From the IMG/VR virus record IMGVR_UViG_3300032087_006258, positions 1 through 22,976 of that record: DNA of 22,976 bases; one strand, 5' to 3'. Positions 608-19,178 of the stretch are shown piece after piece. The notes under the pieces were generated by a model. The model made no database searches, had not been told where the DNA came from, and was given only the letters and a program-made list of their open reading frames with translations. This stretch comes from a virus. How positions within the stretch are numbered: position 1 is the first letter of the stretch; every line of letters begins with the position of its first letter. Both the position numbers and the translations under genes were made by a program.

Positions 608-677
608 TTTGCATCCTTATATATTATCATTGGTGAACATTTGGTATTGTAATGTGAAATGCTAAATTACTTTATTA

Positions 678-1394: not shown

Positions 1395-1465
1395 AATTCG
1401 ACCTTATATTCAATATTATAGTTATTGAAGGATAAGTAATATATATTTATTGATTATAAAAACAA

Positions 1466-1993: not shown

Positions 1994-2150
1994 TATTATA
2001 TCCTTGTAGTTAATACTAATTACTATCGATTATGCTATAAAGTATGAAAGGTAATTTATATCTTGCGTCTATATTCCTGTACTTTTAACCTCAAATTTAA
2101 GAATTGATCTAATTGAAATTTTTAACACATTGAATTATCGTTTAATTTAA

Positions 2151-2168
2151 TGTTGGATTTTCTATACA
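2151..2168 (+). promoter_or_regulatory. TGT-N12-ACA site resembling P2 Ogr/Delta activator element
   Basis: TGT at 2151-2153 and ACA at 2166-2168 are separated by exactly 12 bases. P2-group late promoters carry this spaced dyad near -55, bound by Ogr or Delta zinc-finger activators. Its centre lies about 60 bases before the start site predicted from the adjacent promoter candidate. The six fixed bases could arise by chance in a region this size, and no Ogr gene is visible in the window. Confidence 0.3.
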
Positions 2169-2184
2169 AACTTAAAGCTGACCA

Positions 2185-2213
2185 TTGACACTCACCCTAA
2201 AACGATGCATATT
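2185..2213 (+). promoter_or_regulatory. Candidate late promoter
   Basis: A perfect TTGACA at 2185-2190 is followed after 17 bases by CATATT at 2208-2213, a 4/6 match to the -10 consensus. The start would be near 2220, about 100 bases before the holin gene and just before the first of two terminator hairpins. It is the only good rightward promoter seen ahead of the lysis and packaging genes. Confidence 0.45.
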
Positions 2214-2224
2214 TACCACATTGC

Positions 2225-2251
2225 AAAACCTCGCCAACTCGGCGGGGTTTT
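2225..2251 (+). terminator. Intrinsic terminator hairpin 1
   Basis: An 11-bp stem (2225-2235 with 2241-2251, one T-G wobble) closes a 5-base AACTC loop. The stem's 3' side ends in four T, and another T4 follows at 2256-2259. Flanking A and T runs mean it could also work leftward. It lies directly downstream of the predicted transcription start. Confidence 0.7.
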
Positions 2252-2281
2252 GTCGTTTTAGCGCTTCATACCTCTAATCCC

Positions 2282-2305
2282 AACCGCCGTTCTGGCGGTT
2301 TTTTT
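2282..2305 (+). terminator. Intrinsic terminator hairpin 2
   Basis: The stem AACCGCC / GGCGGTT (2282-2288 with 2294-2300) has a 5-base loop and is followed by a T run to 2305. It ends only 17 bases before the holin start, so transcription of the lysis genes from upstream must read through it. Confidence 0.75.
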
Positions 2306-2322
2306 GACCTTGAAATTCGCCT

Positions 2323-2538
2323 ATGAGAGAGAAGATGATCGGATGGTTTGCCTACCTCTGGGCGGGTTTTACCGGCTTGGTGTCTGGCTTATCTATCAAT
2401 GAAATTGGTGTAGTGGTCTCTATCGCTGCCACCTTGTTTACCGCCGTTATCAACTGGCTCTTTCGACGCCGAATGCTCAAAGCCTTGCAGAACCATCCTG
2501 ATGTGAGAAAAGCCTATGAACAAATGGAAGACGACTAG
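2323..2538 (+). CDS. Phage holin, class II, HP1-type
   Basis: This 71-residue protein has two hydrophobic helices, about residues 6-22 and 27-47, then a charged cytoplasmic tail (RRRMLKALQNHPDVRKAYEQMEDD). The size and two-TM layout fit small class II holins of the HP1 family, which time lysis by permeabilising or depolarising the inner membrane. A depolarising (pinholin) role would suit the SAR-type endolysin next to it. ATG 2323 is given as the start. ATG 2335, four codons on, is preceded by an AGAGAG purine stretch and may be the true one. Its 3' end overlaps the endolysin start by 23 bases. Confidence 0.8.
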   Translation: MREKMIGWFAYLWAGFTGLVSGLSINEIGVVVSIAATLFTAVINWLFRRRMLKALQNHPDVRKAYEQMEDD

Positions 2539-3052
2539 CGGCGCGGCAGGTTGTGCGGTGGCTGCAGTACTGGCCTTTGTGGCTGGTACTAATCACGACT
2601 TAAAGACCGGTGATGATGGTTTAGCGTTTATGGCCGGGCTGGAAGGGTGCGAAAGTTCGGCTTACCAGTGTAGCGCCAATGTGTGGACCATCGGCCTTGG
2701 CCATACCCAAGGGGTAGAGCAGGGTGATACAGCGGAAGTGCCAGAAATTGCCCAGTGGTTTATTGATGATATTGCTGCGGCAGAGAAGGTAGTCTATCGG
2801 CAAGTTAAGCTGCCCGAAGGGCCCAAGTTCGATATGGCCGTGAGCTTTGTGATGAACCTTGGTGCGGGCAACTTTCGCAGTTCTACTTACCTGAAGAAAC
2901 TCAAAGCCGGTGAGCTGGATGCTGCCTGCAACGAATTCACTCGCTGGGTGTACGTGAATGGCAAAGACTGTCGAGTGGATGCCAGCAACTGCCGAGGCAT
3001 TGTTACACGGCGGGAACGAGAACGGGGGATTTGCCTCAATGGTTATGAGTAA
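2516..3052 (+). CDS. SAR endolysin, GH24 lysozyme (P1 Lyz type)
   Basis: This 178-residue glycosidase cleaves the MurNAc-GlcNAc backbone of peptidoglycan. Residues 9-24 (GAAGCAVAAVLAFVAG) form a weakly hydrophobic Ala/Gly-rich signal-arrest-release segment instead of a cleaved signal. The catalytic triad is Glu43, Cys52, Thr58. Cys13 in the SAR segment, Cys45 and Cys52 match the P1 Lyz set (Cys13, Cys44, Cys51), in which a disulfide caps the catalytic Cys until the SAR helix leaves the membrane. By family knowledge the protein is exported by Sec, held inactive in the membrane and activated when the holin collapses the membrane potential. The C-terminal RRERERGICL motif is typical of GH24. It overlaps the holin gene upstream and the i-spanin start downstream. 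Confidence 0.9.
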   Translation: MNKWKTTSGAAGCAVAAVLAFVAGTNHDLKTGDDGLAFMAGLEGCESSAYQCSANVWTIGLGHTQGVEQGDTAEVPEIAQWFIDDIAAAEKVVYRQVKLPEGPKFDMAVSFVMNLGAGNFRSSTYLKKLKAGELDAACNEFTRWVYVNGKDCRVDASNCRGIVTRRERERGICLNGYE

Positions 3053-3437
3053 GTTCAAGAGCTATAGCTTAGCGGTGCTGGTTCTGATCGCGTTGGTGTT
3101 GTTTGTCGAGAATGGTTTTTTATCCCGTGACTTAACAGCATCGAAAGCGAACGTGCAGGCCAAGTCGCAAGAAATTGCGCAGCTAGTCGCGGTGAATCAA
3201 TCCATGGAGCAGACGGTGGCTTACCTCGAAGCCATAGCAGAGCGTGAACGTATAGCGGTTGAGCAGGCGGATTTAGCCCGTCGAAGTTGGCAGGCTCGCA
3301 CATCACAAGCACAACAACAAATTGATAAGGACATTGCCAATGCGAACTGTGCTGATTTGTTTATTCCTGGTGCTGACCGTTGGGTGTACTACAACACCGC
3401 CGTCAGTGGTCACCCAATACAAAGTGAAACTGATTAA
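3039..3437 (+). CDS. i-spanin (Rz/LysB-like inner-membrane lysis protein)
   Basis: The product, about 132 residues, has a short N-terminal cytoplasmic part, one TM helix (SLAVLVLIALVLFVENGFL) and a long periplasmic coiled coil rich in Ala, Gln and Glu. This is the usual plan of the inner-membrane spanin subunit, which pairs with an outer-membrane lipoprotein to fuse both membranes at the end of lysis. I use ATG 3039, with GGGGGAT about 9 nt upstream; ATG 3045 is equally possible. The frame stays open back to 2958, but those codons lie inside the endolysin gene. The o-spanin gene starts inside this one in another frame. Confidence 0.85.
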   Translation: MVMSKFKSYSLAVLVLIALVLFVENGFLSRDLTASKANVQAKSQEIAQLVAVNQSMEQTVAYLEAIAERERIAVEQADLARRSWQARTSQAQQQIDKDIANANCADLFIPGADRWVYYNTAVSGHPIQSETD

Positions 3438-3624
3438 ACCACCTGCCGCGTATTTACTTCCTTGTACTCAACCTTATCAATCGCCACCGCGAAAGTGGGG
3501 TGAGGCCGTCAGGCGTGATCCTGTTTGGCTGATGTATTTCTCGTTGTGTGCTTCTCGTATCGAGAACTTGCGGCGTTGTTACGACAACCCGCAGCACTGT
3601 ATTAGCAACACGAGGAAGCCATGA
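3340..3624 (+). CDS. o-spanin (Rz1/LysC-like outer-membrane lipoprotein)
   Basis: This 94-residue lipoprotein begins MRTVLICLFLVLTVGC, a lipoprotein signal with a lipobox ending at Cys16, followed by TTTPPSVV. The mature protein has the short proline-containing region expected of o-spanins plus a longer Cys-containing tail as in P2 LysC. ATG 3340 is chosen because AAGGA lies 8 nt upstream; an in-frame TTG at 3322 has no such site. About 98 bases overlap the i-spanin gene in a different frame, the usual nested spanin arrangement. Its stop overlaps the small terminase start (ATGA). Confidence 0.85.
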   Translation: MRTVLICLFLVLTVGCTTTPPSVVTQYKVKLIKPPAAYLLPCTQPYQSPPRKWGEAVRRDPVWLMYFSLCASRIENLRRCYDNPQHCISNTRKP

Positions 3625-4088
3625 ATAATGAAAAACGATTATGGAATACCAGTGAGCTAGAACAGTTTGGATCTCACCGTTCGACAGTTCGAAAACGCTT
3701 AAAAGCCGCAGGCATTGAGCCCGTAGCCTTCAAAGGCAATACACCGCTTTACGATGTGTGTCAGGTGGCGCCGTATTTATGCAAAGCGCCAGTGAAAGAG
3801 TCTGACGCGCCAGATTTAATGGGGTTTCCTACCGCTGCTGAATTACGCGCTTTTGTTCAGGCTGAACGAGAGAAGCTGAGTTTATCGAAAGATACGGGCG
3901 ATCTTATTCAGCGGGAAGATTATGAAAATGAAATCGCTAAAAGTATTGCTGCTATTAAGAAGTTTGCTGATGGGGCGATTAACCGAATTGAAACGGCTAT
4001 TCCCGATGCGACCGCTGAGCAGCTTGAAAATATTGAAAGCTTGTTGAATTTCGATTTGAAGGCGGTGAATGATGACATTCGAATATAA
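3621..4088 (+). CDS. Terminase small subunit (Nu1/DUF1441-like)
   Basis: This 155-residue protein has an N-terminal helix-turn-helix-like part (NTSELEQFGSHRSTVRKRLKAAGI, residues 9-32), then a helical, charged C-terminal region. The size, the Nu1-like DNA-binding start and the position directly before a lambda gpA-type large terminase support a role in recognising the packaging site and loading the large subunit. This family is often recorded only as DUF1441. It shares an ATGA overlap with the o-spanin gene and overlaps the large-subunit start by 20 bases, so the genes are probably translationally coupled. Confidence 0.75.
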   Translation: MNNEKRLWNTSELEQFGSHRSTVRKRLKAAGIEPVAFKGNTPLYDVCQVAPYLCKAPVKESDAPDLMGFPTAAELRAFVQAEREKLSLSKDTGDLIQREDYENEIAKSIAAIKKFADGAINRIETAIPDATAEQLENIESLLNFDLKAVNDDIRI

Positions 4089-6138
4089 GTATGCGGATGC
4101 AGCGGCTATTCGACGTAGCTTGGCACACCTTTGTTTACCCGCAGATAAAACGCCTACTGAAGCGGCTGATGAATACCTCTGGATTTCTGATGGTATGGAC
4201 ACCACTAAGTTTCTTAGTGCGATGACGCCTTATATGCGCGAACCGATGAATGCGTTATCTCGTCGAATTTATGAAGCGGTTATTGTGGTTGGCCCTGCGC
4301 GTTCGGGTAAAACCAAGGCAATGGTGGAAGGCTGGATAAACTATGCCGTTACTCAAGCACCGGGTGACATGCTGTTGATCTACAGTACTAAAACCAAAGC
4401 GGTGGATATGAGTAAGGTCGATTTAGACCGATGCTTTTCGAAAACAAAGCCAATCCGAGATTTACGCACAGGCCGCAAGGCAGATGACAATCTAACCAGT
4501 AAACAGTTTAAGAACGGCATGATGCTAAAGCTGGATTCAGCGACTGAAACCAGTTTGTCTGCTTCTACTTATCGTTATGCAGGTTGTACCGATTACGACC
4601 GTGCTGATGATTCAGTCGGTGAAGAGGGAAGCAAGTTTCAACTGATGCTGAAACGGGTTCAGAATGCTAAATCATCTGGCATGGCAATGGCAGAGTCATC
4701 CCCTGGGCGTATTGTTCGCCAGCCTAAACCCGAAGCGCAATTATTACCGCATGAATCTCAGCCTTGTTCCGGTATTGGGTCTTTATACAACCAAGGGGAC
4801 AGGCGTCGTTTTTATTGGCAATGCCCTGATTGCGAAGCGTGGTTTCTTCCTCACTTTGAGGTGTTGAAGTGGGATGAGCATGATGATCATCAGAAAGCGG
4901 CTAATTCGACGTATTGTGAGTGTCCTCGCTGTACGTATCGGATTGAAGAGAATCAAAAGCGAAAACTAAATCTAGATGGACAGTGGTTTCGTGAAGGTGG
5001 CGTTGATCAATATGGTCAGGCTGTCGAAGACGAAAGTCAGGTTCGTAAATCTAAGTGGGCCACATTTTGGTTTGAAGGTGTTGTTGCGACTTATCAGAGT
5101 TGGGATAAGTTGGTGTATCGCTATTTAAGTGCACAAACCCAGTATGACAGTAGTGGTGATGAAGAGGCGCTGAAAAGCTTCTTCAATGTCGATATTGGTC
5201 GCCCTTATATTTTGCAATCCCAAAGTCAGGATGTTGGTGCTCATGAGTTGATGGCTCGGGCTGAAGACTACCCGCGAAGTGTGGTACCTGAAGGTGGCCG
5301 ATTCCTGATCATGAGTATTGATGTGCAGGGTGGTCGAAAGAACCCTCGCTTTGTGGTGCAAGCTCAAGTGTTTGGTGAAGGCTTGCAGCGTTGGGTTATC
5401 GACCGTTATGAGATATTAACGACACCTCACCGCAATGGTGACCGGATTAACCCTGCAGTGTATGCCGAAGATTGGGATCTGTTGATTGATCAGGTGATTA
5501 AGAAAACCTATCCGCTGGCTGATGAGTCTGGCCGTGTGATGAAACCGCTCCTGACGTTGTGTGACTCTGGTGGTTCTGGCGAAACACATGGCAATAAAAC
5601 GACGTCGGTGACTGAGCTAAGTTATCAGTTTTACAACCGCCTGAAGAGGCAGAGCATGTCTCACTTGTTCCGCTTGGTAAAAGGCGCGAGTCGTGATCCA
5701 AAAGACTTAGTGAAAGAAAGCTACCCCGATAAACGTTCTAAACACGCGCATGGTGAAATTCCACTATTACTGCTTCATACCAATCGATTAAAGCACCGTG
5801 TGTCTTCTAGTTACTGTCGTGCTGAATTTGGTTCCCGATATTTCCATTTACCTACGTGGTGTCAACGAGAGTGGTTTGATGAACTCACCGCTGAGTTTGT
5901 TGATGAAAATGGTGACTGGAAGAAGCCAGATAAAGCCGCTAACGAGGCTTTTGATTTATGTGTTTATGCCGAAGCAGGTATGCATTATAAGGGCGGCGAT
6001 GAGTTGAACTGGCAGAAACCACCAGGCTGGGCCGATGAATGGCAATTCAATACCAACGTGGTGGATGCAGACCAACAACCGAAATTTGAACGACAAGCAA
6101 AACGCAGATACAGCCACTCAAGGGGCATTTACGGATGA
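4069..6138 (+). CDS. Terminase large subunit, lambda gpA family
   Basis: This 689-residue packaging motor has the Walker A loop GPARSGKT at residues 75-82. Two CPxC pairs follow (QCPDC and ECPRC, in the 260-310 region), as found in gpA-type terminases. Its C-terminal half contains the IMSIDVQ motif, whose Asp is the likely first metal ligand of the nuclease. The enzyme cuts concatemeric DNA at cos and pumps it into the prohead with ATP. Length is close to lambda gpA (about 640). Start ATG 4069 or 4072, just inside the small-subunit gene, with AAGGCGG upstream. The frame is intact and shows no decay. Confidence 0.92.
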   Translation: MMTFEYKYADAAAIRRSLAHLCLPADKTPTEAADEYLWISDGMDTTKFLSAMTPYMREPMNALSRRIYEAVIVVGPARSGKTKAMVEGWINYAVTQAPGDMLLIYSTKTKAVDMSKVDLDRCFSKTKPIRDLRTGRKADDNLTSKQFKNGMMLKLDSATETSLSASTYRYAGCTDYDRADDSVGEEGSKFQLMLKRVQNAKSSGMAMAESSPGRIVRQPKPEAQLLPHESQPCSGIGSLYNQGDRRRFYWQCPDCEAWFLPHFEVLKWDEHDDHQKAANSTYCECPRCTYRIEENQKRKLNLDGQWFREGGVDQYGQAVEDESQVRKSKWATFWFEGVVATYQSWDKLVYRYLSAQTQYDSSGDEEALKSFFNVDIGRPYILQSQSQDVGAHELMARAEDYPRSVVPEGGRFLIMSIDVQGGRKNPRFVVQAQVFGEGLQRWVIDRYEILTTPHRNGDRINPAVYAEDWDLLIDQVIKKTYPLADESGRVMKPLLTLCDSGGSGETHGNKTTSVTELSYQFYNRLKRQSMSHLFRLVKGASRDPKDLVKESYPDKRSKHAHGEIPLLLLHTNRLKHRVSSSYCRAEFGSRYFHLPTWCQREWFDELTAEFVDENGDWKKPDKAANEAFDLCVYAEAGMHYKGGDELNWQKPPGWADEWQFNTNVVDADQQPKFERQAKRRYSHSRGIYG

Positions 6139-6347
6139 CAATAACTAACCGCCAGCGCTTGCAGTGGTATTTGGATGCTGAGCAGAAAATTTTAATGCAG
6201 CAGTCGGTCGAAACGGCTGAAGGTGAAAAGTTAACGTTTGCCAGTTTAGCGACGGTTCGCAGGGAGATTGAGCGCTTACAGGCATTAATTGCCCGAGAAA
6301 ATCAGGGAGGCCGCAGAAGCTTAATCAGGAGGAATTACCTTGAGTAA
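6135..6347 (+). CDS. Head-tail joining protein, gpW-like
   Basis: This 70-residue protein (MTITNRQRLQWYLDAEQKIL...) matches the size, helical make-up and position of lambda gpW, which plugs the portal after packaging and prepares the head for tail attachment. The basic end RRSLIRRNYLE also fits. It lies between gpA-type and gpB-type genes as in lambda. Its ATG overlaps the terminase stop (ATGA), with AAGGGG upstream. Confidence 0.8.
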   Translation: MTITNRQRLQWYLDAEQKILMQQSVETAEGEKLTFASLATVRREIERLQALIARENQGGRRSLIRRNYLE

Positions 6348-7860
6348 ATTCAACCTTGCTGACCGTGTGGTGGGGTACTTCAGCCCCAAAGCTGGGCTTG
6401 AACGGTTATATAATCGAACGTTGATAAACAAGTATCAAGCTGCACTACCTGCTAACCCTCACACTAAGAAACGTAATCCTCGCTCAACCAGTAAAGCCAA
6501 TCAGTTAAACAAAGATGCTAAGTCGTTACGCCAACGCGCTCGCCATATGGATGAGAACACACCGTTGGTGACGGCTATTCTGGATGAGTTTTGTGCCAAT
6601 GTGGTTGGGCCTAACGGCATTATGATTGAGCCGCAGCCATTGGATAACGATGGCAATGTACATACGGAGTTTGCTCGTCAGATCAATGAATGGTTTGAAC
6701 TGTTTTCCCTTAAGCAAAATATTGATGGTGAGCTGTCTCGGGCAGAAACCGAGTGGCTGGCTTGTCGAACTTGGTTACGTGATGGCGAAGTGTTTGCCCG
6801 TTATTACATGGGGCATCACTCAGATATTACTTACCCCTCTGGTACGCCGTTTGGTGTTCAGCCTTTTGAGCCGGACTACGTGCCGTTGAATATCAGTGAG
6901 CCTGAACGCGGTGTGTATGAAGGTATTCGACGGAATAAGCTAGGGCAGATCGTTTCTATTCTGATTCAACGCGATGCACTTGGCTTTGAGTTCTCGGAGG
7001 TTGAGGCGCGTTTTGTTGCTCACCTGAAGTTTACGCGGCGATTCCATCAAAACCGAGGCGTTACGCTACTGCACTCGGTGTTAGACCTGATTTCTGATGT
7101 GGAAGATTACGACCAATTTGAGCGTATTAGTGCGCAGATTGCTAGCCGCTTTGCCTATTTCATTAAACGCGACAGTAGTGGTGATGCTAACGATGATTTT
7201 GATCGGGGTGGCGATATTTTCCTTGGTATGGGGAACAGTTTTGAATTAGCACCTGGTGAAGATGCAGGTGTGGTCGAAAGTAATCGGCGTGAAGCGATGA
7301 GTAGTCCGTTTCGTGATTCTCAAATGCGTTTAGCGGCTTCAGGTTCGGGTGTGAATTGCTCTAGCGTGACTCGTCATTACACGGGGAGCTATTCGGCTCA
7401 ACGGCAGGAGTTGATCGACTCTTTTGCTCGTTATCGGATCTTACAACGCAAGTTTGTAACCAGCTGGACTCGTCCGCAATACCGACATGCTTTAGAGATG
7501 GCGGTTTTATCTGGTCAGCTAAAAGTCCCCAAAGATGTCAATTCTGATTCGTTGTTGAATGCGATTTATCAAGCACCTGTGATGCCGTGGATTGATCCTG
7601 CCAAAGAGATGATTGGTATCGAGAAAGGAACCCGATTGGGTTTGCAGTCTCTCAGTCATTTTCAGCGGGAACGTAATTTTAATCCTGTATCAGTCAGGCG
7701 CGAGATTAAGGCTGAGCGTAAAGCGATGAATGATGATGCGATTGTGAGTGTGGCAGACCCTGCCCATAACATTGTGGCGAAGATCCAGCATGGCGCTGAC
7801 GACAATAAGCCAGCAGGCCAAAGCAAAAACAGAGAGGCAAAGAATGCCGAAGATGAATAA
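6340..7860 (+). CDS. Portal protein, lambda gpB family
   Basis: This 506-residue protein matches the lambda-type portal (about 530 residues), the dodecameric ring through which DNA enters and leaves the head. Supporting segments are the N-terminal LADRVVGYFSPKAGLERLYNR, an AI-DEFCANVVGPNGI region, and a C-terminal PVMPWIDPAKE motif characteristic of this family. I take TTG 6340 as the start because a full AGGAGG lies about 8 nt upstream. It overlaps gpW by 8 bases and the protease gene by 17 bases. The frame is intact. Confidence 0.92.
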   Translation: MSKFNLADRVVGYFSPKAGLERLYNRTLINKYQAALPANPHTKKRNPRSTSKANQLNKDAKSLRQRARHMDENTPLVTAILDEFCANVVGPNGIMIEPQPLDNDGNVHTEFARQINEWFELFSLKQNIDGELSRAETEWLACRTWLRDGEVFARYYMGHHSDITYPSGTPFGVQPFEPDYVPLNISEPERGVYEGIRRNKLGQIVSILIQRDALGFEFSEVEARFVAHLKFTRRFHQNRGVTLLHSVLDLISDVEDYDQFERISAQIASRFAYFIKRDSSGDANDDFDRGGDIFLGMGNSFELAPGEDAGVVESNRREAMSSPFRDSQMRLAASGSGVNCSSVTRHYTGSYSAQRQELIDSFARYRILQRKFVTSWTRPQYRHALEMAVLSGQLKVPKDVNSDSLLNAIYQAPVMPWIDPAKEMIGIEKGTRLGLQSLSHFQRERNFNPVSVRREIKAERKAMNDDAIVSVADPAHNIVAKIQHGADDNKPAGQSKNREAKNAEDE

Positions 7861-9202
7861 ATCATGGTTCACCCTGAGCAATCAGGGGGAAGAGCAGCCG
7901 GTTAAAGTGTGGGTTCATGGTGATATCGGCAGTTATGACATTGAAGCTATCGATTTGGTGCGTGCGCTGCAGGCAGTTGGTAGCCAAGATGCGGAGTTTC
8001 GTATTCAGAGTTATGGCGGCTCGGTGTATGAAGGGCTGGCGATGTATAACGCTATTAAAGCGCACAAGGGTAATACCGTAGGTGTGGTTGATGGCTTAGT
8101 GGCTTCTATCTCAAGCTATTTTCTGATGGCATGCGATGTGGTGAAGATGCCTGAAAACGCAAAGCTGATGATTCACAACCCGTCGATTGGTGCATGGGGC
8201 GGTGAAGATGAGTTGGATAGTGCGTTAACCCAACTTAAGAACGCGAAACAAACCATTGCTGATGCTTATGTAGAGCGCTGCGGAAAGCCATTGGACGATG
8301 TGCTGGCTGCGATGGCTAAGGAGACTTGGTTTACGGCGCAGGAAGCGCTGGAGTTTGGCTTGATTGATGAGATTGTCGATCCGGTTAACCTGTCCAATAG
8401 CCTTAAGGGTGTATCACTCGATGATTTGCAAGCAAAAGCGTTTAAACACCCTCCGGAAGATTTGCTGAATCAGTTAGAAAGCCCTTTACCTAAGCCCGAA
8501 CAAGACCCGCTTTTAGATTCCACTTCTATAGACGATGAACCTCAACCGCTGGCCGCAAGTGCGGCAGGCAGCGAACAATCACAACAGGTAAGTGACGATA
8601 TGCCAAAACCACTTGATAACGATGTACTGCAAAATGCAGTGAAGAAAGAAAACGCTCGCCAGTCTGCGATTCGTGCGCTGTGTGCTCAGCATAAGGTGAG
8701 TGATGAGTTGTGCGATGAAATGCTCAATGACATGGATTGCTCGGAAGAGAAAGCATCGCTGAAAATTCTGCAGAATTTAGGCACGCTTTCAGCTCAAGGC
8801 TCCGCGGATAATACGAAAGCTGATCATACCCAAGATGGTAATGAATCGATGGGGCTGACGAATACCCATATCCATGTAGATAACGGTAATGTAACCAAAG
8901 ATTCGCTGCAAAATGCGCTAAATTCTCGCTGTGGTACCGAAAGTGTCGAGAAAGATAATCCATATCGCATGAAAACACTGCTGGATATGGCTGAAATTTC
9001 GGTGGGTAAAGACGCTAAGTTCTGCAGTAACAAGAATGAACTGGTGGCAAGGGCGTTTAATAGCGGTGATTTCGCCGACATTATTACTGAAGGTGTTCGC
9101 ACGGTGATACGGTTGAGCTCATTGTTGCTCATGGTAATAGTTCAGGTTTCCGACTCTCAGGCATCGCTCAAAAAAGCATTAGTCATCATGACGATTCAGT
9201 AA
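7844..9202 (+). pseudogene. ClpP-like prohead protease/major capsid fusion, capsid part truncated
   Basis: Start ATG 7844 has AGAGAGG 6 nt upstream. Residues 15-190 are a ClpP-fold protease: oxyanion motif YGGS (57-60), GLVAS with Ser88 as nucleophile, LMIHNPS with His111, and an acid expected further on. Next come a low-complexity Pro/Asp linker, a charged scaffold-like helical region and the beginning of a capsid domain (LVARAFNSGDFADIITEG). Relatives join this protease to a complete major capsid protein of roughly 200-300 further residues. Here the likeness stops near base 9090. The remaining 35 or so codons are a hydrophobic, unrelated tail read out of frame from the neighbouring tail-gene remnant. 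The protease half looks intact, but the capsid is effectively absent. Confidence 0.75.
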
Positions 9203-9306
9203 ATGGGGTGCTTCCACCATCACCAGTTTGCGTTGGATCTGTTCTTTGGGGCGGTGCGACACGGATGGTGGTTATTACTGAAATGAATCCCGGAGCGACT
9301 GCATGA
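9091..9306 (+). pseudogene. 3' remnant of a gene formerly upstream of the tail fibre
   Basis: From 9091 to the TGA at 9304-9306 a frame one base off from the capsid frame is open for 71 codons. It gives a protein-like C-terminus (GDTVELIVAHGNSSGFRLSGIAQKS... VLWGGATRMVVITEMNPGATA) and has no plausible start. Its stop overlaps the ATG of the tail fibre gene (ATGA), as expected for an intact gene end in a phage operon. In P2-type order the gene before the fibre is tail protein I, so this may be its end, but I do not recognise the sequence. Confidence 0.55.
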
Positions 9307-9821
9307 GTACACCGATTGTACAGTACACCAAAGCTGGACTGGCTGAGCTGATAAGTGCGAAGAACCAAGGCATTAAAGGCACAATTAAGTGGATCGCAGC
9401 TGGTGATCGTAGTTATACGCCAAGCGTTAATCAGACTCGGTTGAGTAACGAAAAACAACGAGAGTTGATTACTGATTGGGAAGAGTTGAGCTCAACTCAG
9501 TTACGCATGGGCGCCGTATTTAAAGGCAGTCTTGAATATGAGGTGAGAGAGGTCGGTTTCTTTTTGGAGTCTGGCACGTTACTGGCTGTTTATTCGATAC
9601 CAAATACGTTGCTCACCTATAAGTCAGCGAATGCGAGCTGGTTGCAGAAGTTCACTCTCGATATTTCTCCATTGCCAACGGATAGCGTAAGCGTGGTACT
9701 TGGTGCTGAGAATATAAACCTGTTCCTAGCTGAAGAGCTCGCCATTATGGGAACGGCACAGGTTGGCAACATGGCTCGTCATGTTGAGTTGCTGCTCAGG
9801 GTGAACGAGTTGGAAAAGTAA
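9303..9821 (+). CDS. Tail fibre N-terminal (tail-collar/DUF3751-type) protein
   Basis: This 172-residue protein begins MSTPIVQYTKAGLAELISAKNQGIK and contains TIKWIAAGDRSYTPS and an EVREVGFF segment. This is the pattern of the N-terminal domain that anchors P2 gpH-type fibres to the baseplate. P2 gpH is far longer; here the domain ends at residue 172 (LLLRVNELEK) and a separate fibre gene follows. The stop may be natural, since many relatives split the fibre into two genes, or it may be an old truncation. Its start overlaps the remnant upstream (ATGA). Confidence 0.75.
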   Translation: MSTPIVQYTKAGLAELISAKNQGIKGTIKWIAAGDRSYTPSVNQTRLSNEKQRELITDWEELSSTQLRMGAVFKGSLEYEVREVGFFLESGTLLAVYSIPNTLLTYKSANASWLQKFTLDISPLPTDSVSVVLGAENINLFLAEELAIMGTAQVGNMARHVELLLRVNELEK

Positions 9822-9864
9822 GGTGAGTTGGCTGGCATTAATTCGATAATTGGAAATCAGGCAT

Positions 9865-10599
9865 ATGAGTATTGAGCAACAAATTGGCACGTTGGTTGAA
9901 GCGTCGAATGATTTGACGAAGGTGGTGAATGGAAAGGTTGGGGAGATTGATAAGCGGGTGGAGCAGGCTGAGAGTGAGTATGGTTCATTTATTGCAGAAG
10001 CACGCGGTGAGATGTCGCATATTCTAGTTAGTCGAAATCAAATCATGGAGCCAACTAACTCAAGCTCGATTAAAGGGTTTACAACAATTGGCTTATCTTC
10101 TTTTGAGGTAATCAAGGAAGCGACAATTTATGCCAAGCCATCGAATGATACTGATCATACTGGTAATGGTTGTGCTGCTGATTTTCGGAATAATGTCTTC
10201 AGTGGTTATGTTAATAAGCCATTTTATATTCTCCGATTAAAATGGACGAGAAGCACATTAGCTCATCCTGCGCGACTGGATAACAATTATTCTCAAGGTT
10301 ATCAGCAGGGAGCTGTTACGACTGGTTGCTATCTGCGCATATTATCTGGTGATGTCGAAGGGTCTATGAAGCCACTGATTGAGTACGGTGATGGTTGGAA
10401 GTTTTATGGAATGCGGCGACGAGTATCAAATATAAATGATGCATTTTACGGATCTCATACAAAATTAGGTCTCTCATCACAGCCTGGGACTAGTGGGGAA
10501 GCACTGATCTGTCTGTTTGGTTCAGTAAGTGGTTATGTACCTTATGAGAACAACATATGGGGTGTATTTCCAGAGTTTGCTCGTCCGGCAGATATATAG
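9865..10599 (+). CDS. Tail fibre distal/receptor-binding protein
   Basis: This 244-residue protein starts with a predicted coiled coil (IEQQIGTLVEASNDLTKVVNGKVGEIDKRVEQAESEY, about residues 2-40). A compact beta-rich region with several aromatic and Gly residues follows. A coiled coil plus beta-rich tip is the usual form of a trimeric fibre end that binds the host surface. The call depends on that architecture and on position between the fibre anchor and a fibre chaperone; the tip itself is not recognised. ATG 9865 is chosen because it opens the coiled coil; an in-frame TTG at 9850 is the alternative. The gene is more AT-rich than the adjoining tail genes, typical of exchanged host-range modules. 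Confidence 0.65.
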   Translation: MSIEQQIGTLVEASNDLTKVVNGKVGEIDKRVEQAESEYGSFIAEARGEMSHILVSRNQIMEPTNSSSIKGFTTIGLSSFEVIKEATIYAKPSNDTDHTGNGCAADFRNNVFSGYVNKPFYILRLKWTRSTLAHPARLDNNYSQGYQQGAVTTGCYLRILSGDVEGSMKPLIEYGDGWKFYGMRRRVSNINDAFYGSHTKLGLSSQPGTSGEALICLFGSVSGYVPYENNIWGVFPEFARPADI

Positions 10600-10618
10600 G
10601 CTACTTGAGGAAAAAGCT

Positions 10619-10903
10619 ATGGAAATAAAACATAACGGTGCTTTAGTTGCCACGATTGGTGATGTTACAGAGAGCAATGAAGTATCATCTTTTTTAATCG
10701 CAAATGGATTAAATATTCCAGAAGAAGAGCTTGAGTTGGTTTATACAGGTGAAGAAGCTAGAGAGGCTCGACAGCGAGCATATAGTGTTGAAAGCGATCT
10801 TCTTTATATGGAATGGCAATACGATAATACACCTGAGAAAGAACAAGCTTGGCGAGACAAAGTAACCGAGATAAAAGCCCGTTACCCATTACCAACAGAG
10901 TGA
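10619..10903 (+). CDS. Tail fibre assembly chaperone-like protein
   Basis: This 94-residue acidic protein (MEIKHNGALVATIGDVTESNEV...) ends in a helical region with YMEWQYDNTPEKEQAWRDKVTEIKARYP. That resembles the W-rich C-terminus of phage tail fibre assembly chaperones. It directly follows the fibre gene with a gap of 19 bases and is closed by a terminator. ATG 10619 has an AGGAAAAA site upstream. The frame is open further upstream to 10529, but those codons overlap the fibre gene and have no ribosome site. Confidence 0.65.
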   Translation: MEIKHNGALVATIGDVTESNEVSSFLIANGLNIPEEELELVYTGEEAREARQRAYSVESDLLYMEWQYDNTPEKEQAWRDKVTEIKARYPLPTE

Positions 10904-10914
10904 TACCTATAATG

Positions 10915-10933
10915 CCGCTTTCGCGGTTTTTTT
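10915..10933 (+). terminator. Intrinsic terminator after fibre module
   Basis: A short GC stem CCGC/GCGG (10915-10918 with 10923-10926) with a TTTC loop is followed by seven T. It lies 12 bases after the fibre chaperone stop and separates the fibre module from the sheath operon. Confidence 0.75.
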
Positions 10934-10974
10934 GAACCTAAATCCAGTCTAATTAACCTTCTGCAGGAACAATT

Positions 10975-11166
10975 ATGGCAACCCAAAAACAACTTGGGGT
11001 GCAGGATTTCCCGATCCTGAAACCTTTTCGCCTTAATGGCCGCTGGTATTACCCAGCCGATAAAACTATCTCCCTAAAGCCTGCGCAGACGTCTTTTTTG
11101 CTGAAGAACGGCAAGATTGGGCAGCCTGAGCAAGCGACACCAATTAAACAAGAGGTGAGCAAATAA
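10975..11166 (+). CDS. Small protein of unknown function preceding tail sheath
   Basis: This 63-residue protein (MATQKQLGVQDFPILKPFRLNGRWYYPADKTISL...) has GCAGGAA upstream of its ATG and ends one base into the sheath ATG (TAATG). A small protein just before the sheath gene is common in Mu-like and related contractile tails (DUF2635 in Mu), and the WYYPADKTISLKPAQ segment is loosely similar in kind. I cannot assign a function. Tight coupling to the sheath suggests a tail role. Confidence 0.6.
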   Translation: MATQKQLGVQDFPILKPFRLNGRWYYPADKTISLKPAQTSFLLKNGKIGQPEQATPIKQEVSK

Positions 11167-12341
11167 TGGCAGCCCTTGCACCAATTCAAGATTTTGAGCT
11201 CAACGGTGTTGAAGTTAATACCATTGAGCCGTTACCGAGTATGGGCCCACTTGCGCTGCAGGTAGTTCACTTGGTCGGTACTGCGCCCGATAAGCGCGGG
11301 ACAATTGCTTATAACGAACCAACCCGCCTTTGGAATTATGCCGATGCCATGATGGCGCTAGACAGTAAGGGTGATCGCCAAGGTACCTTGCCGAATGTGG
11401 TTCGCTATCTCTTGGAATATGTAAAGTGCATCCTGTATGTGACTGTTGTACAGGATCATACCGATGATGCGACGACAGAAGCTAACGTGATCGGCGGTGT
11501 CGATTCAGGTACGGGCGCAATCAAAGGTCTTGAGACGGTGAAAGGTTGTCCTGAAACGCCAACCATTATTGCTGCGCCTGGTTTCAGTTCTAAGCCTATT
11601 GGTCAGAAGCTAGCATTGATGGGGCGTGATGTTCGCTGCCGTCCGGTCCTTGATGGGCCAAACCTAAACGATATGGCTGCGGCTGAGTTCGCTGCTGAAT
11701 TTGGGGCTGAAGGAACAGGGGAAGATAAAATAAGCATTATCGACCCTTGGTTCCTTAAAACCTATGACGGTTCACAGCTGTTAATGCCAGCCTCTATTGC
11801 GCTGGTGGCGGCGATGGCTTCTGTAGATGGATGGGTAAGCCCACAAAATCGTTCGGCTCTATGTGATGAAACTGCCCGTAATGTGTCGTATAAAATCAAC
11901 GATAAAACCACGCAAGCTAATTTCCTTAATAAGCATGGTGTTGTGACCATTGCGCGTACCCGTATGGGCGGTTATTCCATTATTGGTAATCGTACGAATA
12001 CTGGACGTTTCATTTCTCATGTTGGTCTTGAAGATTTGATGGCGCGTAAGTTGGAAGAGACCAGCCAGCCGCTGATGGGTAAGCAACTTACTGAAGAGTT
12101 CATGCAGCAGGTGATTGATCGGTTGACGAACTGGGGGCAAGACCTAGTCGCACAGGGGGTGATCCCCGTTTTCAAAGCTTTCCTGCATCCTAGCAAAAAT
12201 AATATTGAGAACTATACATCTGGCCGTTGGTTCTTGTGTGTGAACTATGGCCGTTACTCGCCGAATGAGCACATGGTGTATGAGATGAGTGTTGATAATG
12301 GGCTGATTACAGCTTGGCTTGAGGAGGTGGTAAATGGCTGA
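11166..12341 (+). CDS. Contractile tail sheath protein (gpFI)
   Basis: This 391-residue protein is close in length to P2 FI (about 396). It shows the sheath features LDGPNLND, DPWFLKTYDG, ASIALVAAMASVDGWVSPQN and, near the C-terminus, KFTNWGQD-type and SGRWFLCVNYGRYSPNEHM segments shared by P2-type sheaths. Sheath subunits form the outer cylinder that contracts to drive the tube through the envelope. It overlaps the tube gene by 8 bases. The reading frame shows no damage. Confidence 0.92.
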   Translation: MAALAPIQDFELNGVEVNTIEPLPSMGPLALQVVHLVGTAPDKRGTIAYNEPTRLWNYADAMMALDSKGDRQGTLPNVVRYLLEYVKCILYVTVVQDHTDDATTEANVIGGVDSGTGAIKGLETVKGCPETPTIIAAPGFSSKPIGQKLALMGRDVRCRPVLDGPNLNDMAAAEFAAEFGAEGTGEDKISIIDPWFLKTYDGSQLLMPASIALVAAMASVDGWVSPQNRSALCDETARNVSYKINDKTTQANFLNKHGVVTIARTRMGGYSIIGNRTNTGRFISHVGLEDLMARKLEETSQPLMGKQLTEEFMQQVIDRLTNWGQDLVAQGVIPVFKAFLHPSKNNIENYTSGRWFLCVNYGRYSPNEHMVYEMSVDNGLITAWLEEVVNG

Positions 12342-12825
12342 TCGTATTCGTATGCGAATTAAGGCTCAGGTTGAATCTGTGCCTTTGATGAATGAGATCG
12401 TTGATTTCACTCCGCCTGAAATTAAAGCCAAGTTAGCCAATAACGAGGGTTCGTTCGTTGTGTCGGAAGATACCGTTGGACTTGAAAAGTTGAGTTGGTC
12501 GCTCAAGGTGCGGGGTGAACATGGGGCGATCTCTAAAGCGTTAGGTAAGTTCACGATGGGAAATGCTCAGGTGAATGTAACTGAGAAAGGTAAGAGCACC
12601 GAGGGCGTTGCATTTGTTGAAGAGTATTCGATGTATGGCCCAATTACTGGGATCAAGAAAGAACCTATAAAAATGGGCGAGAAGCCAACCGTTACCATTG
12701 AAGGTACCTGTAAGGCATATACCCAGCGTGATACTGGCATTGTGGTGCATGATATTAATGTGAATACCGGAAAAACCATTGTGGGCGGTGTTGATCTGAT
12801 GGGCGAAGCAGGAATTAGCCTGTAA
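12334..12825 (+). CDS. Tail tube protein (gpFII)
   Basis: This 163-residue protein begins MADRIRMRIKAQVESVPLMNEIVDFTPPEIKAK and has the beta-rich body (SWSLKVRGEHGAISKALG, GEKPTVTIEGTCKAYTQRDTG) of P2 FII-type tubes. It forms the inner conduit beneath the sheath. It follows the sheath gene with an 8-base overlap and is closed by an intrinsic terminator, as in P2-type tails. Confidence 0.9.
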   Translation: MADRIRMRIKAQVESVPLMNEIVDFTPPEIKAKLANNEGSFVVSEDTVGLEKLSWSLKVRGEHGAISKALGKFTMGNAQVNVTEKGKSTEGVAFVEEYSMYGPITGIKKEPIKMGEKPTVTIEGTCKAYTQRDTGIVVHDINVNTGKTIVGGVDLMGEAGISL

Positions 12826-12850
12826 TAGTCTCTTGTTTTTTAGTTGATAG

Positions 12851-12871
12851 GCGCCTTAGGGCGCTTTTTTT
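12851..12871 (+). terminator. Intrinsic terminator after tube gene
   Basis: Stem GCGCC/GGCGC (12851-12855 with 12860-12864), loop TTAG, then seven T to 12871. It lies 26 bases after the tube stop, so sheath and tube can be made in large amounts separately from the low-copy assembly genes that follow. Confidence 0.8.
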
Positions 12872-12885
12872 GTATCGGAATTTCC

Positions 12886-13455
12886 ATGATAAAGACCATT
12901 AAGCTACCTTTCTACAATCGAAATGGTAACCATGAAATTGATATTAAACCTATCTCCCTCGGTGAGTTTCGAAAGCTTCCTTATGTCAATTTTGGCGTAG
13001 ACAAAGAGCTGATCCCTTCTGAACTTTTTCAGCAGCTTAAAGCGATTATCCTTGCTTGTACTGATATTTCTACTGAGGAATTTGAAGAGCTATCTGCCCC
13101 TGATTTTACTCAGCTACATGAAGATATTCGGGCTTTTATCCTAAAGCCCTCTGATGAAATTCAAGAGAAGCCGTTGAGTGGTTCTGATTTTGAATTTGAG
13201 CTGCTATATCCGTTTACCAACGATTTAAACGAGAGCATTTCACGTATTAAGTTTGTTGTTCCTAAGGTGAAGCATTCGGAAGCGCTAGCGGAGATCACTG
13301 AAGATACTGCGCGAGAGAATTTCATGTTTCGTGTGGTTTGTAATCTCGATAAGCCGGATATGGAAGCTATGGCGTTGAATGACTATTTGGCGATCAAGCC
13401 ACAGGTCGGCGCTTTTTTTCAACTGTCGGGGGATTACTTTCGCCCGACGACGTAG
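12886..13455 (+). CDS. Tail assembly chaperone E
   Basis: This 189-residue protein starts MIKTIKLPFYNRNGNHEIDIKPISLGEFRKLP and carries the MFRVVCNLDKPDMEAMALNDYLAIKPQVGAFF segment typical of contractile-tail assembly proteins lying between tube and tape measure. It is expected to bind the tape measure during tail assembly. It is longer than P2 gpE (about 90). ATG 12886 is chosen because earlier in-frame codons lie inside the terminator. Most ribosomes should end at TAG 13453-13455; a fraction should shift to the E' frame at the T run ahead. Confidence 0.8.
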   Translation: MIKTIKLPFYNRNGNHEIDIKPISLGEFRKLPYVNFGVDKELIPSELFQQLKAIILACTDISTEEFEELSAPDFTQLHEDIRAFILKPSDEIQEKPLSGSDFEFELLYPFTNDLNESISRIKFVVPKVKHSEALAEITEDTARENFMFRVVCNLDKPDMEAMALNDYLAIKPQVGAFFQLSGDYFRPTT

Positions 13456-13580
13456 AAGCACTCATTGATTTAATCCCCATGCACCGTAATACCTCTGAAA
13501 GCGAGCTACGTGAATGGCCGCAAGATCAGGCTATGCGGCGGTATGAATTGATTCTCTCTAAGCTCGGGGTTAAACGATGA
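12886..13580 (+). CDS. E+E' frameshift fusion, tail assembly chaperone
   Basis: A -1 slip at 13413-13419 links the first 178 residues of E to 53 residues in the overlapping frame, giving a 231-residue product ending at TGA 13578-13580. The extension (TVGGLLSPDDVEALIDLIPMHRN... RRYELILSKLGVKR) looks like real coding sequence. It has no start codon or ribosome site of its own near its beginning and stops exactly within the ATG of the tape measure gene. This is the arrangement of P2 E/E' and lambda G/GT. The ratio of E to fusion product is thought to be important for tail assembly in those phages. That the slip occurs here is an inference. Confidence 0.75.
13413..13419 (+). promoter_or_regulatory. 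Slippery T7 run for -1 translational frameshift
   Basis: Seven T occur in the phase T_TTT_TTT relative to E, so both P- and A-site codons can re-pair fully after a -1 slip. P2 uses a similar U-rich heptamer. The -1 frame is open for 53 codons from here to the tape measure start. Confidence 0.75.
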
Positions 13581-16267
13581 GCGAAAAGATTAGTTTTGTC
13601 CTTGATGCCACTGTTAAAGGCACGAAGGATATTGTTTCGACCACCACGGCTACCGAGCGTTTGACGGCGGCACTGGAAGAACAGCGTAGTGAGGTGAAAT
13701 CTCTCAATACTCAACTTCGGGAAGTCAAAGGATTCGATTCTGCCAGTAGCCGAGCAGCAAAGTTGGCTAAGCAAGTTTCTGGTGCTAAAGCGTCTATGAA
13801 TGCGCTTGGTATCGAGATGGAAGAAAATAAGCAGAAGACATCTCGTTTACGTGGTGAGTATGGCATTACTCAGGCTGAGATTCGAAGTCTGAACCAACAG
13901 ATGAAAAAGGCTTCAGGTGAAGGGGCACAACAACTCAAACTGAAGTTCAATGAAGCTAATAAGCGGCTTGAGTCGTTAAATGCTGAAATTCATCATGGCA
14001 AAGTTCGAACTACGGAATTAGGTGCGGCTTATAAAAAAGCATCAGGCAGAGTTGATTCCCTAACCGAACGCCAAACAAAACAACAGAATCGCTTACAGAG
14101 CTTAGGTGACGCGCTGAAAAAGGCAGGTGTCAGTACAGATAAGCTTGGTAATGAACAAAAGCGTTTGGAATCCCAAACTGAGAAATCAACGGCGGCCCTT
14201 GAGAAGCAAAATAGGCGACTTAAGGAAATGCAGACGATCCAAGGCCGTATTGATGCTAGAAAGGCAAAGCTTGGAGAAATAGGTAGTCAAGCAACCAGCT
14301 TGGCCATGGCGGCAGCACCATTGGCAGGCACCATGTGGTCTGCCATGAAGAATGAAAGTTCATTCGCGGATGTCAGTAAAGTCGTGGACATGACGCCGGA
14401 GCAGTCTTCTCAGTTACGTTCTTGGGCGTTGAAAACCTCTACTGATACGCCGATGAGTGCCAATGATATCAATGCGATGCTTGCGGCTGGTGGCCAGAGC
14501 GGGATTCAGGATATTAATGAGCTGAAAAGCTTTGTACTTGATTCGGCTAAGATGGGCGTCGCCTTTGATATGGAGGCCGGACAGGCTGGTGAAACCCTTG
14601 CTGTGTTTAAGGCGGCGATGGGACTTGATCAACAAGACGCTCTAGGTCTTGCTGGGCTCGCTAATCATTTATCTAACAACTCCAATTCAAAAGCCAAAGA
14701 CATTGCAGGGGTAATGTCTCGGGAAGGTGCGACGGCTAAAACCGCAGGTTTCTCTGTGAATGAATCAGCGGCTTTAGCTTCAGCCATGCTTTCAACGGGG
14801 ATGGGCGAAGAACGTACAGCAACGGCACTTAAAAACATATCAGGACGGCTGACATTGGGCGATGCGGCCAGTGGCACTCAGAAAAAGGCGATGACTGCAT
14901 TGGGTTTGGATACGGGTGATGTTGCCAGCTCTATGCAGCAAGACGCTTCGGGCACTTTATTGGAAGTGCTGGAAGCCATTAAAGATGCACCCATTGAAGA
15001 GCAAAGTGCGTTGATCAGTCAGATCTTTGGTGAAGAGGCCAAAGGGGCTGTGGCTGCGCTTGCAGGCAATACTCAGAACTTCACCAAAGCGTTGAAACTT
15101 GCCAAGCAAGGGCAAGATGTTCATATCGAATCCCTCCAGAAAGAATATGAGACCCGAGTTAGTACGTCTGAAAATGGCGTGGATATGTTCGTTAATAAAG
15201 TGAGCCGTTTGAGTGTTGTAATAGGAACGGCGTTATTACCTGCATTGAACTGGGTGCTTGAGCCATTGGGTAAAGGCGTTGATATGCTAGCCGATTTTGC
15301 TGAGGCCAACCAAACTGTTACAGCCGCAGTGGGAATTGGAGTTGCAGCGTTCATTGGCCTTAAAGGTGTACTACTAGCTGGCAAGGCCGCTTCGCTTATT
15401 TTTGGTAATACCTTGGATAAATCCCGTTTGTTTCGTAAGGGACTGAATAGGGAAACTAAAGAAGGTGGCAGAATTGCTGCAATGGCGGCTAAACGATGGC
15501 GAAGTCTTAATGCTGTCGTAGGTTCGAGCCGTGGGACAAGACAAAGCGGCATCAGTGGAGGGGCTCGTGGTGAGCGGTCTTCACGTCGTAAACGCCGGGG
15601 GCGAGGGTTATCTGGTTTAGCTCGCTCGGTTATGGATAACCGATTTGTTCAACCTAAAGGTGCAGCTTTGGCGATGGCTGGCTCTGGGATTGCAATGATG
15701 CCTATGAGTGCCATGGCGGCTGATGCCATCGAGATTGGTGGCGATGTGGCAGATAGCATGGGGAAAGTTGGTCTATCCCGAGTTTTGAAACCCCTAGGAT
15801 TGACGATGAACGCGGTCTCTGCTGCTGAAGGTATTGCCACGGGTAATATGGAGCAAAGTGGTGAAGCCTTGGGTGATATCGGTGGATCTTTGGGTGGAGG
15901 TGCCCTTGGCGCCGCAATTGGTACCATGATTTTGCCTGGCATAGGTACTGCTATCGGTGGCTTGCTGGGTTCTATTGGTGGGGGTATTGGCGGCGAGATG
16001 TTGGGTGGCTGGTTTGGACGTAAACTGGACTCACCCGAAAAAACGGCAGCGAAAGTTGATGCTGTTCAACAGAAAGAAGCGCAAGCAAGGCAACAGCCTC
16101 AAGTCACGTTTTCCCCTCAGATTCAAATCACGGGTGCTCAAGGTCAAGATGAGCAAGTAATAGCCAAAGAAATCACTCGCCAAATGGATCAGCAATTCTC
16201 TTATTTGATGGGTGAGAACACGCTTTCAACTCAATTAGGTTATGCCGCTATCGATCGAGATAGTTAG
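13577..16267 (+). CDS. Tail tape measure protein (gpT-like)
   Basis: This 896-residue protein fixes tail length and is later released during DNA entry. The first 230 residues are almost all coiled coil. A core resembling TP901-type tape measures follows, with SSFADVSKVVDMTPEQSSQLRSW and a GATAKTAGFSVNESAALASAMLSTGMG segment. There is a hydrophobic stretch near 575-605, a basic patch (GARGERSSRRKRRGRG) around 660-680, and a Gly-rich membrane-active region near 760-815. P2 gpT is about 815 residues. Its ATG overlaps the E' stop. The intact length makes this the strongest tail-length indicator here. Confidence 0.92.
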   Translation: MSEKISFVLDATVKGTKDIVSTTTATERLTAALEEQRSEVKSLNTQLREVKGFDSASSRAAKLAKQVSGAKASMNALGIEMEENKQKTSRLRGEYGITQAEIRSLNQQMKKASGEGAQQLKLKFNEANKRLESLNAEIHHGKVRTTELGAAYKKASGRVDSLTERQTKQQNRLQSLGDALKKAGVSTDKLGNEQKRLESQTEKSTAALEKQNRRLKEMQTIQGRIDARKAKLGEIGSQATSLAMAAAPLAGTMWSAMKNESSFADVSKVVDMTPEQSSQLRSWALKTSTDTPMSANDINAMLAAGGQSGIQDINELKSFVLDSAKMGVAFDMEAGQAGETLAVFKAAMGLDQQDALGLAGLANHLSNNSNSKAKDIAGVMSREGATAKTAGFSVNESAALASAMLSTGMGEERTATALKNISGRLTLGDAASGTQKKAMTALGLDTGDVASSMQQDASGTLLEVLEAIKDAPIEEQSALISQIFGEEAKGAVAALAGNTQNFTKALKLAKQGQDVHIESLQKEYETRVSTSENGVDMFVNKVSRLSVVIGTALLPALNWVLEPLGKGVDMLADFAEANQTVTAAVGIGVAAFIGLKGVLLAGKAASLIFGNTLDKSRLFRKGLNRETKEGGRIAAMAAKRWRSLNAVVGSSRGTRQSGISGGARGERSSRRKRRGRGLSGLARSVMDNRFVQPKGAALAMAGSGIAMMPMSAMAADAIEIGGDVADSMGKVGLSRVLKPLGLTMNAVSAAEGIATGNMEQSGEALGDIGGSLGGGALGAAIGTMILPGIGTAIGGLLGSIGGGIGGEMLGGWFGRKLDSPEKTAAKVDAVQQKEAQARQQPQVTFSPQIQITGAQGQDEQVIAKEITRQMDQQFSYLMGENTLSTQLGYAAIDRDS

Positions 16268-16291
16268 GGTGTAATTGTTAAGGGTTCGTCT

Positions 16292-16660
16292 ATGCATCAT
16301 TTAGTTATTGGTGAGTTTGTGTTTTCAGTGGGTGATAAAACACCTATCACTAAATTCGAGCGTACGTCACTTGGTGCCTTCTCTGAAGTGGGTTTGATTG
16401 ATGACGCTCGGTCGGAACGAACTGGGCGTCCACTTGAGACTATCGATATTAGTGGGAAGTGGTTGCAATACGGAGCCCATGAATCAGTAGAGAATATTCG
16501 GGGGTTTATCGATGAGCCCCAGCAAGTGAGCGATGGGCAGGGGAGAAACTTAGGACGCTGGACGATCCAACAGCTTAAAGAAGGAAAGTCATCGCTGGTA
16601 CATGATGGTCGGGCAATGGTGACTGATATTACTCTTCAGTTGAAGGAGTACCGTGGATGA
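16292..16660 (+). CDS. Tail terminator/completion protein gpU
   Basis: This 122-residue protein (MHHLVIGEFVFSVGDKTPITKFERTS... GRPLETIDISGKW) has the sequence pattern and place of P2 gpU, shorter than P2's by about 35 residues. It lies 24 bases after the tape measure with AAGGG upstream and overlaps gpX by ATGA. It is thought to act at the end of the tail during assembly. Confidence 0.8.
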   Translation: MHHLVIGEFVFSVGDKTPITKFERTSLGAFSEVGLIDDARSERTGRPLETIDISGKWLQYGAHESVENIRGFIDEPQQVSDGQGRNLGRWTIQQLKEGKSSLVHDGRAMVTDITLQLKEYRG

Positions 16661-16860
16661 AGGTAACCGCGAAGGTCGGTGAGTTGATCATCGACTTGTT
16701 ATATCTGCACACAGGGCAAGATAACGATCAGCTAGAGCAGGCGTTTTACCAGCTTAATCCGCATGTTCGTAATGAGGTGTTCCAACAAAATACTGTTGTG
16801 ACTATACCCGATGTGAAAGCAGCACCAAAACTCAAAACAGTTACTAAATCATGGGATTGA
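16657..16860 (+). CDS. Tail protein gpX, LysM-like
   Basis: This 67-residue protein, the same length as P2 gpX, shows LysM-like spacing: an early AKVGELIIDLLYLHTGQ, then LNPHVRNEVFQQNTVVTIPD. Small LysM-like proteins of this type help build the baseplate or attach it to the tape measure. It overlaps gpU (ATGA) and gpD. Confidence 0.75.
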   Translation: MKVTAKVGELIIDLLYLHTGQDNDQLEQAFYQLNPHVRNEVFQQNTVVTIPDVKAAPKLKTVTKSWD

Positions 16861-17837
16861 TGATGATTAATTTGATAGGGAAAAACGCGGATTTAATGTT
16901 GAATCGACTGAAGTCTTGGCGCCTGAAGGATGGAAATGGGACTGAGGGTGACAGCCTGACTCTGGTTATTAACTCGGATGACATTGATGGTATTCCCCCG
17001 AAGGGAGAGCGGTACTCTGTCATGTTGGGTGATGTACCCCGTGATGAGTTTCAGATTTCAAAACGGTCAATTAGCTTACACCCGCGAGAAATTACGTTGG
17101 TTTTAACTGTGGCCCCTTTTTCGATTACAGATGAAACCGGTTATAGGGAGCGCAAATCAGCGAGCTGGGACAATACAACTTTGGGGCAGGTGGTCTCGGA
17201 CTGTGTTACCTCTCATGGGTTCTCTGTTTTTGTGCATCCAAGATTACAAAAAATTGTAATCGAGCATTTGGATAGGTGTGAAGAGAGCACTCCAGCATTC
17301 TTAAATAGATTAGCGAAACAGTATGATGCAGTTGCAAAGCCATCAGAAGGACGATTTGTTTTTGTTCCCATTGGTGAGCAACGTAGCGCCTCAGGAAAAG
17401 CGATTCAATCCATTACCCTGTCACTTTATCAGGGCCGTGACCCTCAAGGACCTGCATTTATTAATGTGTCATCAGATCTTGATGGGCGTAATGATTTTAA
17501 CGGAGTTCGTGCCCATTACCTTTCAACTTCCGATGGTAGTCGAAAGGAAGTGAGGCTTGGAAGCTCTCCATTTAAGCTGCTTGGTAAAGACAAAAATAGC
17601 AAGGTGGAAGCCGAGCAGACCTGTGCTACTGAGCTTAGAAAACTGCAACGGCAGGGACGGAAAATCACGATAGATGCTCCGGTAAATCCAACCGCATTTG
17701 CCGAGGGTATTGTGATTATGGATGAGTCATTCCCTCGAGCATTTCAGGGGAATTGCTCGATTGACCAAGTTAGTTTCTCCGGCCAAGGGCTACAACCAAC
17801 ACGAATGGCTATTCAAGCGACATTGACAGGTGAGTAA
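16851..17837 (+). CDS. Baseplate hub / late control protein gpD
   Basis: This protein of up to 328 residues belongs to the P2 gpD family. The name late control is historical; gpD forms the central hub of the baseplate, related to T4 gp27. Recognisable parts are LTLVINSDDIDGIPPKGERYSVMLG near the start, the middle AFLNRLAKQYDAVAKPSEGRFVFVPIG and the VTSHGF segment. ATG at 16851, 16860 and 16863 are all possible starts; MINLIGKNADLML from 16863 best resembles relatives. The gene overlaps gpX, and its stop overlaps the integrase start. It is the only baseplate gene still complete in the window. Confidence 0.85.
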   Translation: MGLMMINLIGKNADLMLNRLKSWRLKDGNGTEGDSLTLVINSDDIDGIPPKGERYSVMLGDVPRDEFQISKRSISLHPREITLVLTVAPFSITDETGYRERKSASWDNTTLGQVVSDCVTSHGFSVFVHPRLQKIVIEHLDRCEESTPAFLNRLAKQYDAVAKPSEGRFVFVPIGEQRSASGKAIQSITLSLYQGRDPQGPAFINVSSDLDGRNDFNGVRAHYLSTSDGSRKEVRLGSSPFKLLGKDKNSKVEAEQTCATELRKLQRQGRKITIDAPVNPTAFAEGIVIMDESFPRAFQGNCSIDQVSFSGQGLQPTRMAIQATLTGE

Positions 17838-19117: not shown

Positions 19118-19178
19118 GCCTTATCACGACTGGATCCTTAAGTGATCTGATTCTAAACATCAGAGGATGAGAGAAAAT

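Follow-up and report, generated by a model that had tools for sequence, protein, structure and literature searches.

In this stretch of viral DNA a head maturation protease gene runs, without any intervening capsid or baseplate genes, into the last codons of a tail gene. Is this a natural arrangement, an artefact of the record, or the result of a deletion? The first-pass annotation had favoured one deletion of several kilobases. Our comparison with related prophages likewise makes it by far the most probable explanation that a temperate prophage with a contractile tail, resident in a Photobacterium-like host, recently lost about 4.8 kb through one deletion.

General features of the window

The window, that is the whole stretch analysed, is an IMG/VR record in its entirety (22,976 bases); it is classed as linear and is therefore probably a fragment of a larger element. 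Gene calls and profile matches identify the late region of a temperate phage with a contractile tail, flanked by further cargo. The lysis genes (2323-3437) are followed by the terminase genes (3621-6138) and the portal (6340-7860), and, beyond the joint, by the tail fibres (9303-10599) and finally the integrase (17837-19117).

The nearest relative is an intact prophage of Photobacterium sanctipauli, with approximately 84-86% DNA identity around the joint. The reference copy, L003 (IMGVR_UViG_2902482210), is the same as L027 (NZ_PYMA01000018.1, P. sanctipauli DSM 100436). This prophage is collinear with the window over 2175-19371, its proteins are mostly 85-98% identical, and its lysis, packaging, tail and integrase genes are the same. 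It differs in retaining a 4.8 kb head and baseplate block that is absent from the window, and in having its own tail fibre tip and its own cargo (Septu, with Hachiman nearby) upstream of the lysis genes. Vibrio phages and prophages Va_PF430-3_p42, Va_90-11-286_p16, 10N.286.54.F2_PE001 and VP882 share packaging genes (terminase 72-74% identical) or tail and fibre genes, but are more distant, and none can be aligned at the DNA level over the whole window.

The protease-capsid fusion

The open frame at 7748-9202 encodes a ClpP-type head maturation protease with capsid, followed by residues without homologues. In 25 viral and eight genome loci the protein homology stops at query residue 422, which corresponds to base 9112, so that the truncated protease/major capsid fusion occupies 7847..9112 on the plus strand. 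The protease domain (PF00574) lies at residues 45-178, and the match to phrog_133 spans positions 4-395 of 668, as against 3-667 in an intact homologue. Relatives continue past residue 422 as a capsid domain (PF25209, E 6e-31, over the missing 269 residues). In the window the 422 native residues are succeeded by approximately 29 new, out-of-frame residues (9113..9202, plus strand) ending at a stop codon at 9200-9202, and no homology was found in that frame. The first-pass annotation had correctly noticed the change to unrelated residues, which it put at about 9090, that is, short of the true end of homology; it had also spoken of a capsid domain at the joint, of which only the N-terminal edge remains, the kept piece being the protease plus linker.

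Position of the joint

BLASTN against L003 gives a left match over window 3611-9111 (~84% identity) and a right match over ~9101-9954 (~86%), but the latter lies 4.8 kb further along L003. The left match ends where window base 9111 equals L003 11262, while the right match is in full register from window base 9109 (ACGGTTGAG, at L003 16063); 4,803 bp are therefore absent, L003 11260 being joined to 16063. The BLAST figure of 4,804 bp was set aside, as it stems from a one-base gap at the alignment edge. The two-sided alignment holds against L002, L003 and L027 and places the joint at 9108-9112, in line with an earlier estimate of a few tens of bases and about 20 bases downstream of the 9091 then given.

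At 9107-9109 the relatives aligned on the left side have ATG (Met) and then CGN; the window reads ATA CGG, and the right side ACA CGG. The A at 9109 therefore most likely derives from the right side, and CG is certainly shared, perhaps ACG. The microhomology that the first-pass annotation had proposed to look for is small, 2-3 bp being certain and up to about 7 bp imperfect; the longest exact repeat common to both ends in L003 is 7 bp, and it is out of register.

The gpI relic and the tail fibre gene

The stretch 9109..9306 (plus strand) carries the last 65 codons and the stop of gpI (Tail_P2_I); the 65 codons (9109-9303) form an open frame without internal stops, which ends in an ATGA shared with the start of the tail fibre gene at 9303. 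By tblastn, L003 gpI is 83% identical to the window over 69 aligned residues (150-218; E 2e-35). The protein-like C-terminus and its overlap with the fibre gene had been recognized beforehand, and prove to be the end of gpI, although the frame begins at 9109 rather than at 9091. Since no start codon is found upstream within reach in its frame, the relic is probably silent. It still bears the mark of functional constraint. Over its 195 bases it differs from L003 at 40 sites, of which 27 are third codon positions (dN/dS 0.12). With the changes placed at random, 11.3 silent ones are expected; the observed value is 25.7, which none of 5000 simulations reached.

The tail-collar fibre gene directly after the relic (9303..9821, plus strand; PF12571, phrog_3737) is intact and 95% identical to its L003 counterpart, with a dN/dS of 0.03. 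It has its own GGAG ribosome-binding site at ~9290-9293, about 7 bases before the ATG, as does L003, and so need not depend on translation of gpI.

At 9954-10796 the tail fibre tip bears no relation to its P. sanctipauli counterpart, although the sequence on either side of it is 85% identical; this is an exchange of the host-range part of the fibre. The nearest relatives of the tip (54% protein identity) are found in otherwise different phages (L049-L051).

The missing block

At the start of the block present in L003 are the final 269 residues of the protease-capsid fusion, which make up almost all of its capsid domain. There follow a decoration protein (phrog_122), a small protein of unknown function (phrog_28695), a tail-completion/neck protein (phrog_27), a conserved protein of unknown function (phrog_16426), baseplate assembly protein V (phrog_9992), baseplate wedge W (phrog_43) and baseplate J (PF04865, phrog_6). 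It closes with the first 153 of the 218 residues of gpI (PF09684), about two thirds of that protein. The loss of the rest of the capsid, of head completion functions and of V, W, J and I had been predicted; to these must be added the decoration protein, the neck/tail-completion protein and the two small conserved genes. Apart from the gpI relic, searches of the window with the deleted proteins gave no match (best E 0.085), as had also been noted.

The full block is in place in 52 of the 56 sheath-bearing viral loci, the other four (L057, L068, L090 and L109) being cut by contig ends, and likewise in the protease-matched loci with the exception of L014 and L034, which are also cut by contig ends. 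One small head gene (L003 12434) was not detected in Aliivibrio-type loci, where the rest of the block is present.

The junction itself appears to be private to this record. Neither the viral nor the genome collection contains it as an exact 48-mer, and the viral collection does not contain it as a degenerate pattern either. In 52 Photobacterium genomes there is no contiguous match to it, the two halves matching apart or not at all, and near-identity searches among phages and plasmids gave no match to the window.

Origin and age of the probable deletion

Both flanks of the joint are collinear with intact relatives and the gap is one continuous block, so that a single deletion of 4,803 bp accounts for the lost genes, the shared flanks and the gap together, as the first-pass annotation had held. 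This interpretation is supported by the sequence comparison. Upstream of the joint the terminase large subunit, gpW-like protein and portal (4069..7860, plus strand; phrog_15, phrog_21) are intact, with dN/dS values of 0.02-0.06 against L003; downstream the same is true of the sheath, tube, tape measure, gpU, gpX and gpD (11166..17837, plus strand; phrog_23, phrog_28, phrog_52; 0.015-0.09). Overall, most flanking genes on both sides are intact, with a dN/dS of 0.015-0.1, and there is no decay elsewhere. Because the relic is still open and its differences from L003 are mostly silent, the loss would be very recent: gpI diverged while still functional, and the deletion would have followed nearly all of that divergence.

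As there are no long repeats at the ends, the most likely route would be one illegitimate recombination event, in which sites with 2-3 bp in common were united through end joining or slippage. Lost with the intervening piece would be the capsid shell domain, the genes for head decoration and completion, those for baseplate V, W and J, and most of gpI. The truncated gene would give a scaffold/protease with a short nonsense tail. With shell protein and baseplate absent, neither heads nor baseplates could form, and, judging from the gene roles in P2-type phages, the element would make neither phage nor tailocin by itself. It would persist as a passenger with its cargo and lysis genes, together with immunity genes if an early region exists outside the record.

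Alternative explanations

The joint might be an artefact (a chimeric amplification product, a chimeric read or a wrong contig join) in a record whose real prophage is intact. It occurs in one record only, and short microhomology is typical of amplification chimeras. An in vitro chimera would moreover look the same as a young deletion, since neither the orphaned relic nor the flanking genes show decay, and for this reason we keep a modest share of the probability for it. Yet the genes stand in just the order and orientation that a simple deletion would leave, and assembly collapse on a repeat is unlikely, because in the relative the ends have no exact repeat longer than 7 bp, that one being out of register, and this is too short for collapse by a k-mer assembler. 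A natural compact architecture, in which the short protein has a genuine gene of its own and this type of phage carries capsid and baseplate genes elsewhere, has next to no probability and was rejected. We found nothing in its support except that the record is a fragment, genes outside which are not visible. Relatives that reach far enough carry the block exactly here, and in none of them was the short gene found as a normal full-length protein with the capsid elsewhere; in addition, the residues after 9112 have no homologue and the gpI relic has no start.

An improbable reading is that of a deletion variant living beside the intact prophage in a mixed population, or of a satellite packaged by a related helper phage that supplies capsid and baseplate. 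In its favour, the genes for terminase, portal and tail shaft, and likewise those for lysis and integrase, have all stayed intact and under constraint, and related prophages occur in the same genus, in one genome (G053) twice. The constraint, however, predates the deletion; no capsid-size or hijacking genes were seen, and the deleted form was not found repeated or shared, as it should be if a satellite were maintained. Slightly less probable still is a newly arisen helper-dependent element, which, having kept packaging, tail shaft, lysis and integration, could be mobilised by Photobacterium prophages; related prophages are common in that genus.

Classification

On the preferred reading of a recent deletion, the window element adds one more case, in itself ordinary, to the defective (cryptic) prophages. 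In comparison with intact relatives it lacks the major capsid domain, the decoration and neck proteins, V, W, J and most of I, and it has a single collinear breakpoint with flanks in the relatives' order. The missing capsid and baseplate genes suggest that it would fail to yield infectious particles. Like other cryptic prophages with internal deletions it has lost virion genes while its other genes stay open; it differs in showing only one event, very young, with no further decay. An R-type tailocin was rejected, as baseplate V, W, J and I are lost while terminase, portal and protease are kept. Nor does the element have the recurrent, conserved, compact form of a phage satellite, the junction being in no other contig searched and the relatives being full length.

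We regard it as a recent instance of ordinary prophage decay; a chimera arising in assembly or amplification is less likely. It offers a clean, base-level example of the first step in such decay, before any other gene has degraded, and opens no new mechanism. A further lesson is that viral contigs called from records of this kind are not complete phages.

Other features of the window

Divergence from P. sanctipauli jumps at about 3603, between window 2175-3603 and 3611-9111. The dS is 0.1-0.5 for the lysis genes, ~0.6-1.4 for the head genes and 0.37 for the integrase, and the jump points to a mosaic exchange. At 3603-3611, where the terminase small subunit follows an Rz-type lysis gene, the window is about 194 bp shorter than P. 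sanctipauli; a second deletion was rejected here, as more distant relatives, L004 among them, match the window in lacking those bases.

The minus-strand cargo to the left of the lysis genes (window 1-2175) differs from that of P. sanctipauli. It comprises a hydrolase-like protein, which the end of the record cuts, an Amidase_3 protein (PF01520) and a membrane protein with a long acidic repeat. The latter arises from an 18-bp tandem repeat at 1123-1325 (11.3 copies, 93% matching), in frame in ORF 678-1394 (minus strand), which encodes acidic repeats such as AETEANAE ahead of the membrane region. In the P. sanctipauli relative L047, PADLOC models (at 2070-5191 and 12959-15126 of L047) identify Septu PtuA/PtuB adjoining the lysis genes, in the same slot as the 1-2175 cargo; they also identify Hachiman HamA/HamB, which lies close to the prophage's left end or inside it. 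Beyond the integrase, window 20643-22196 (minus strand) encodes a protein of 517 residues that has pentapeptide repeats at its C-terminus and likely membrane segments, and is possibly prophage cargo.
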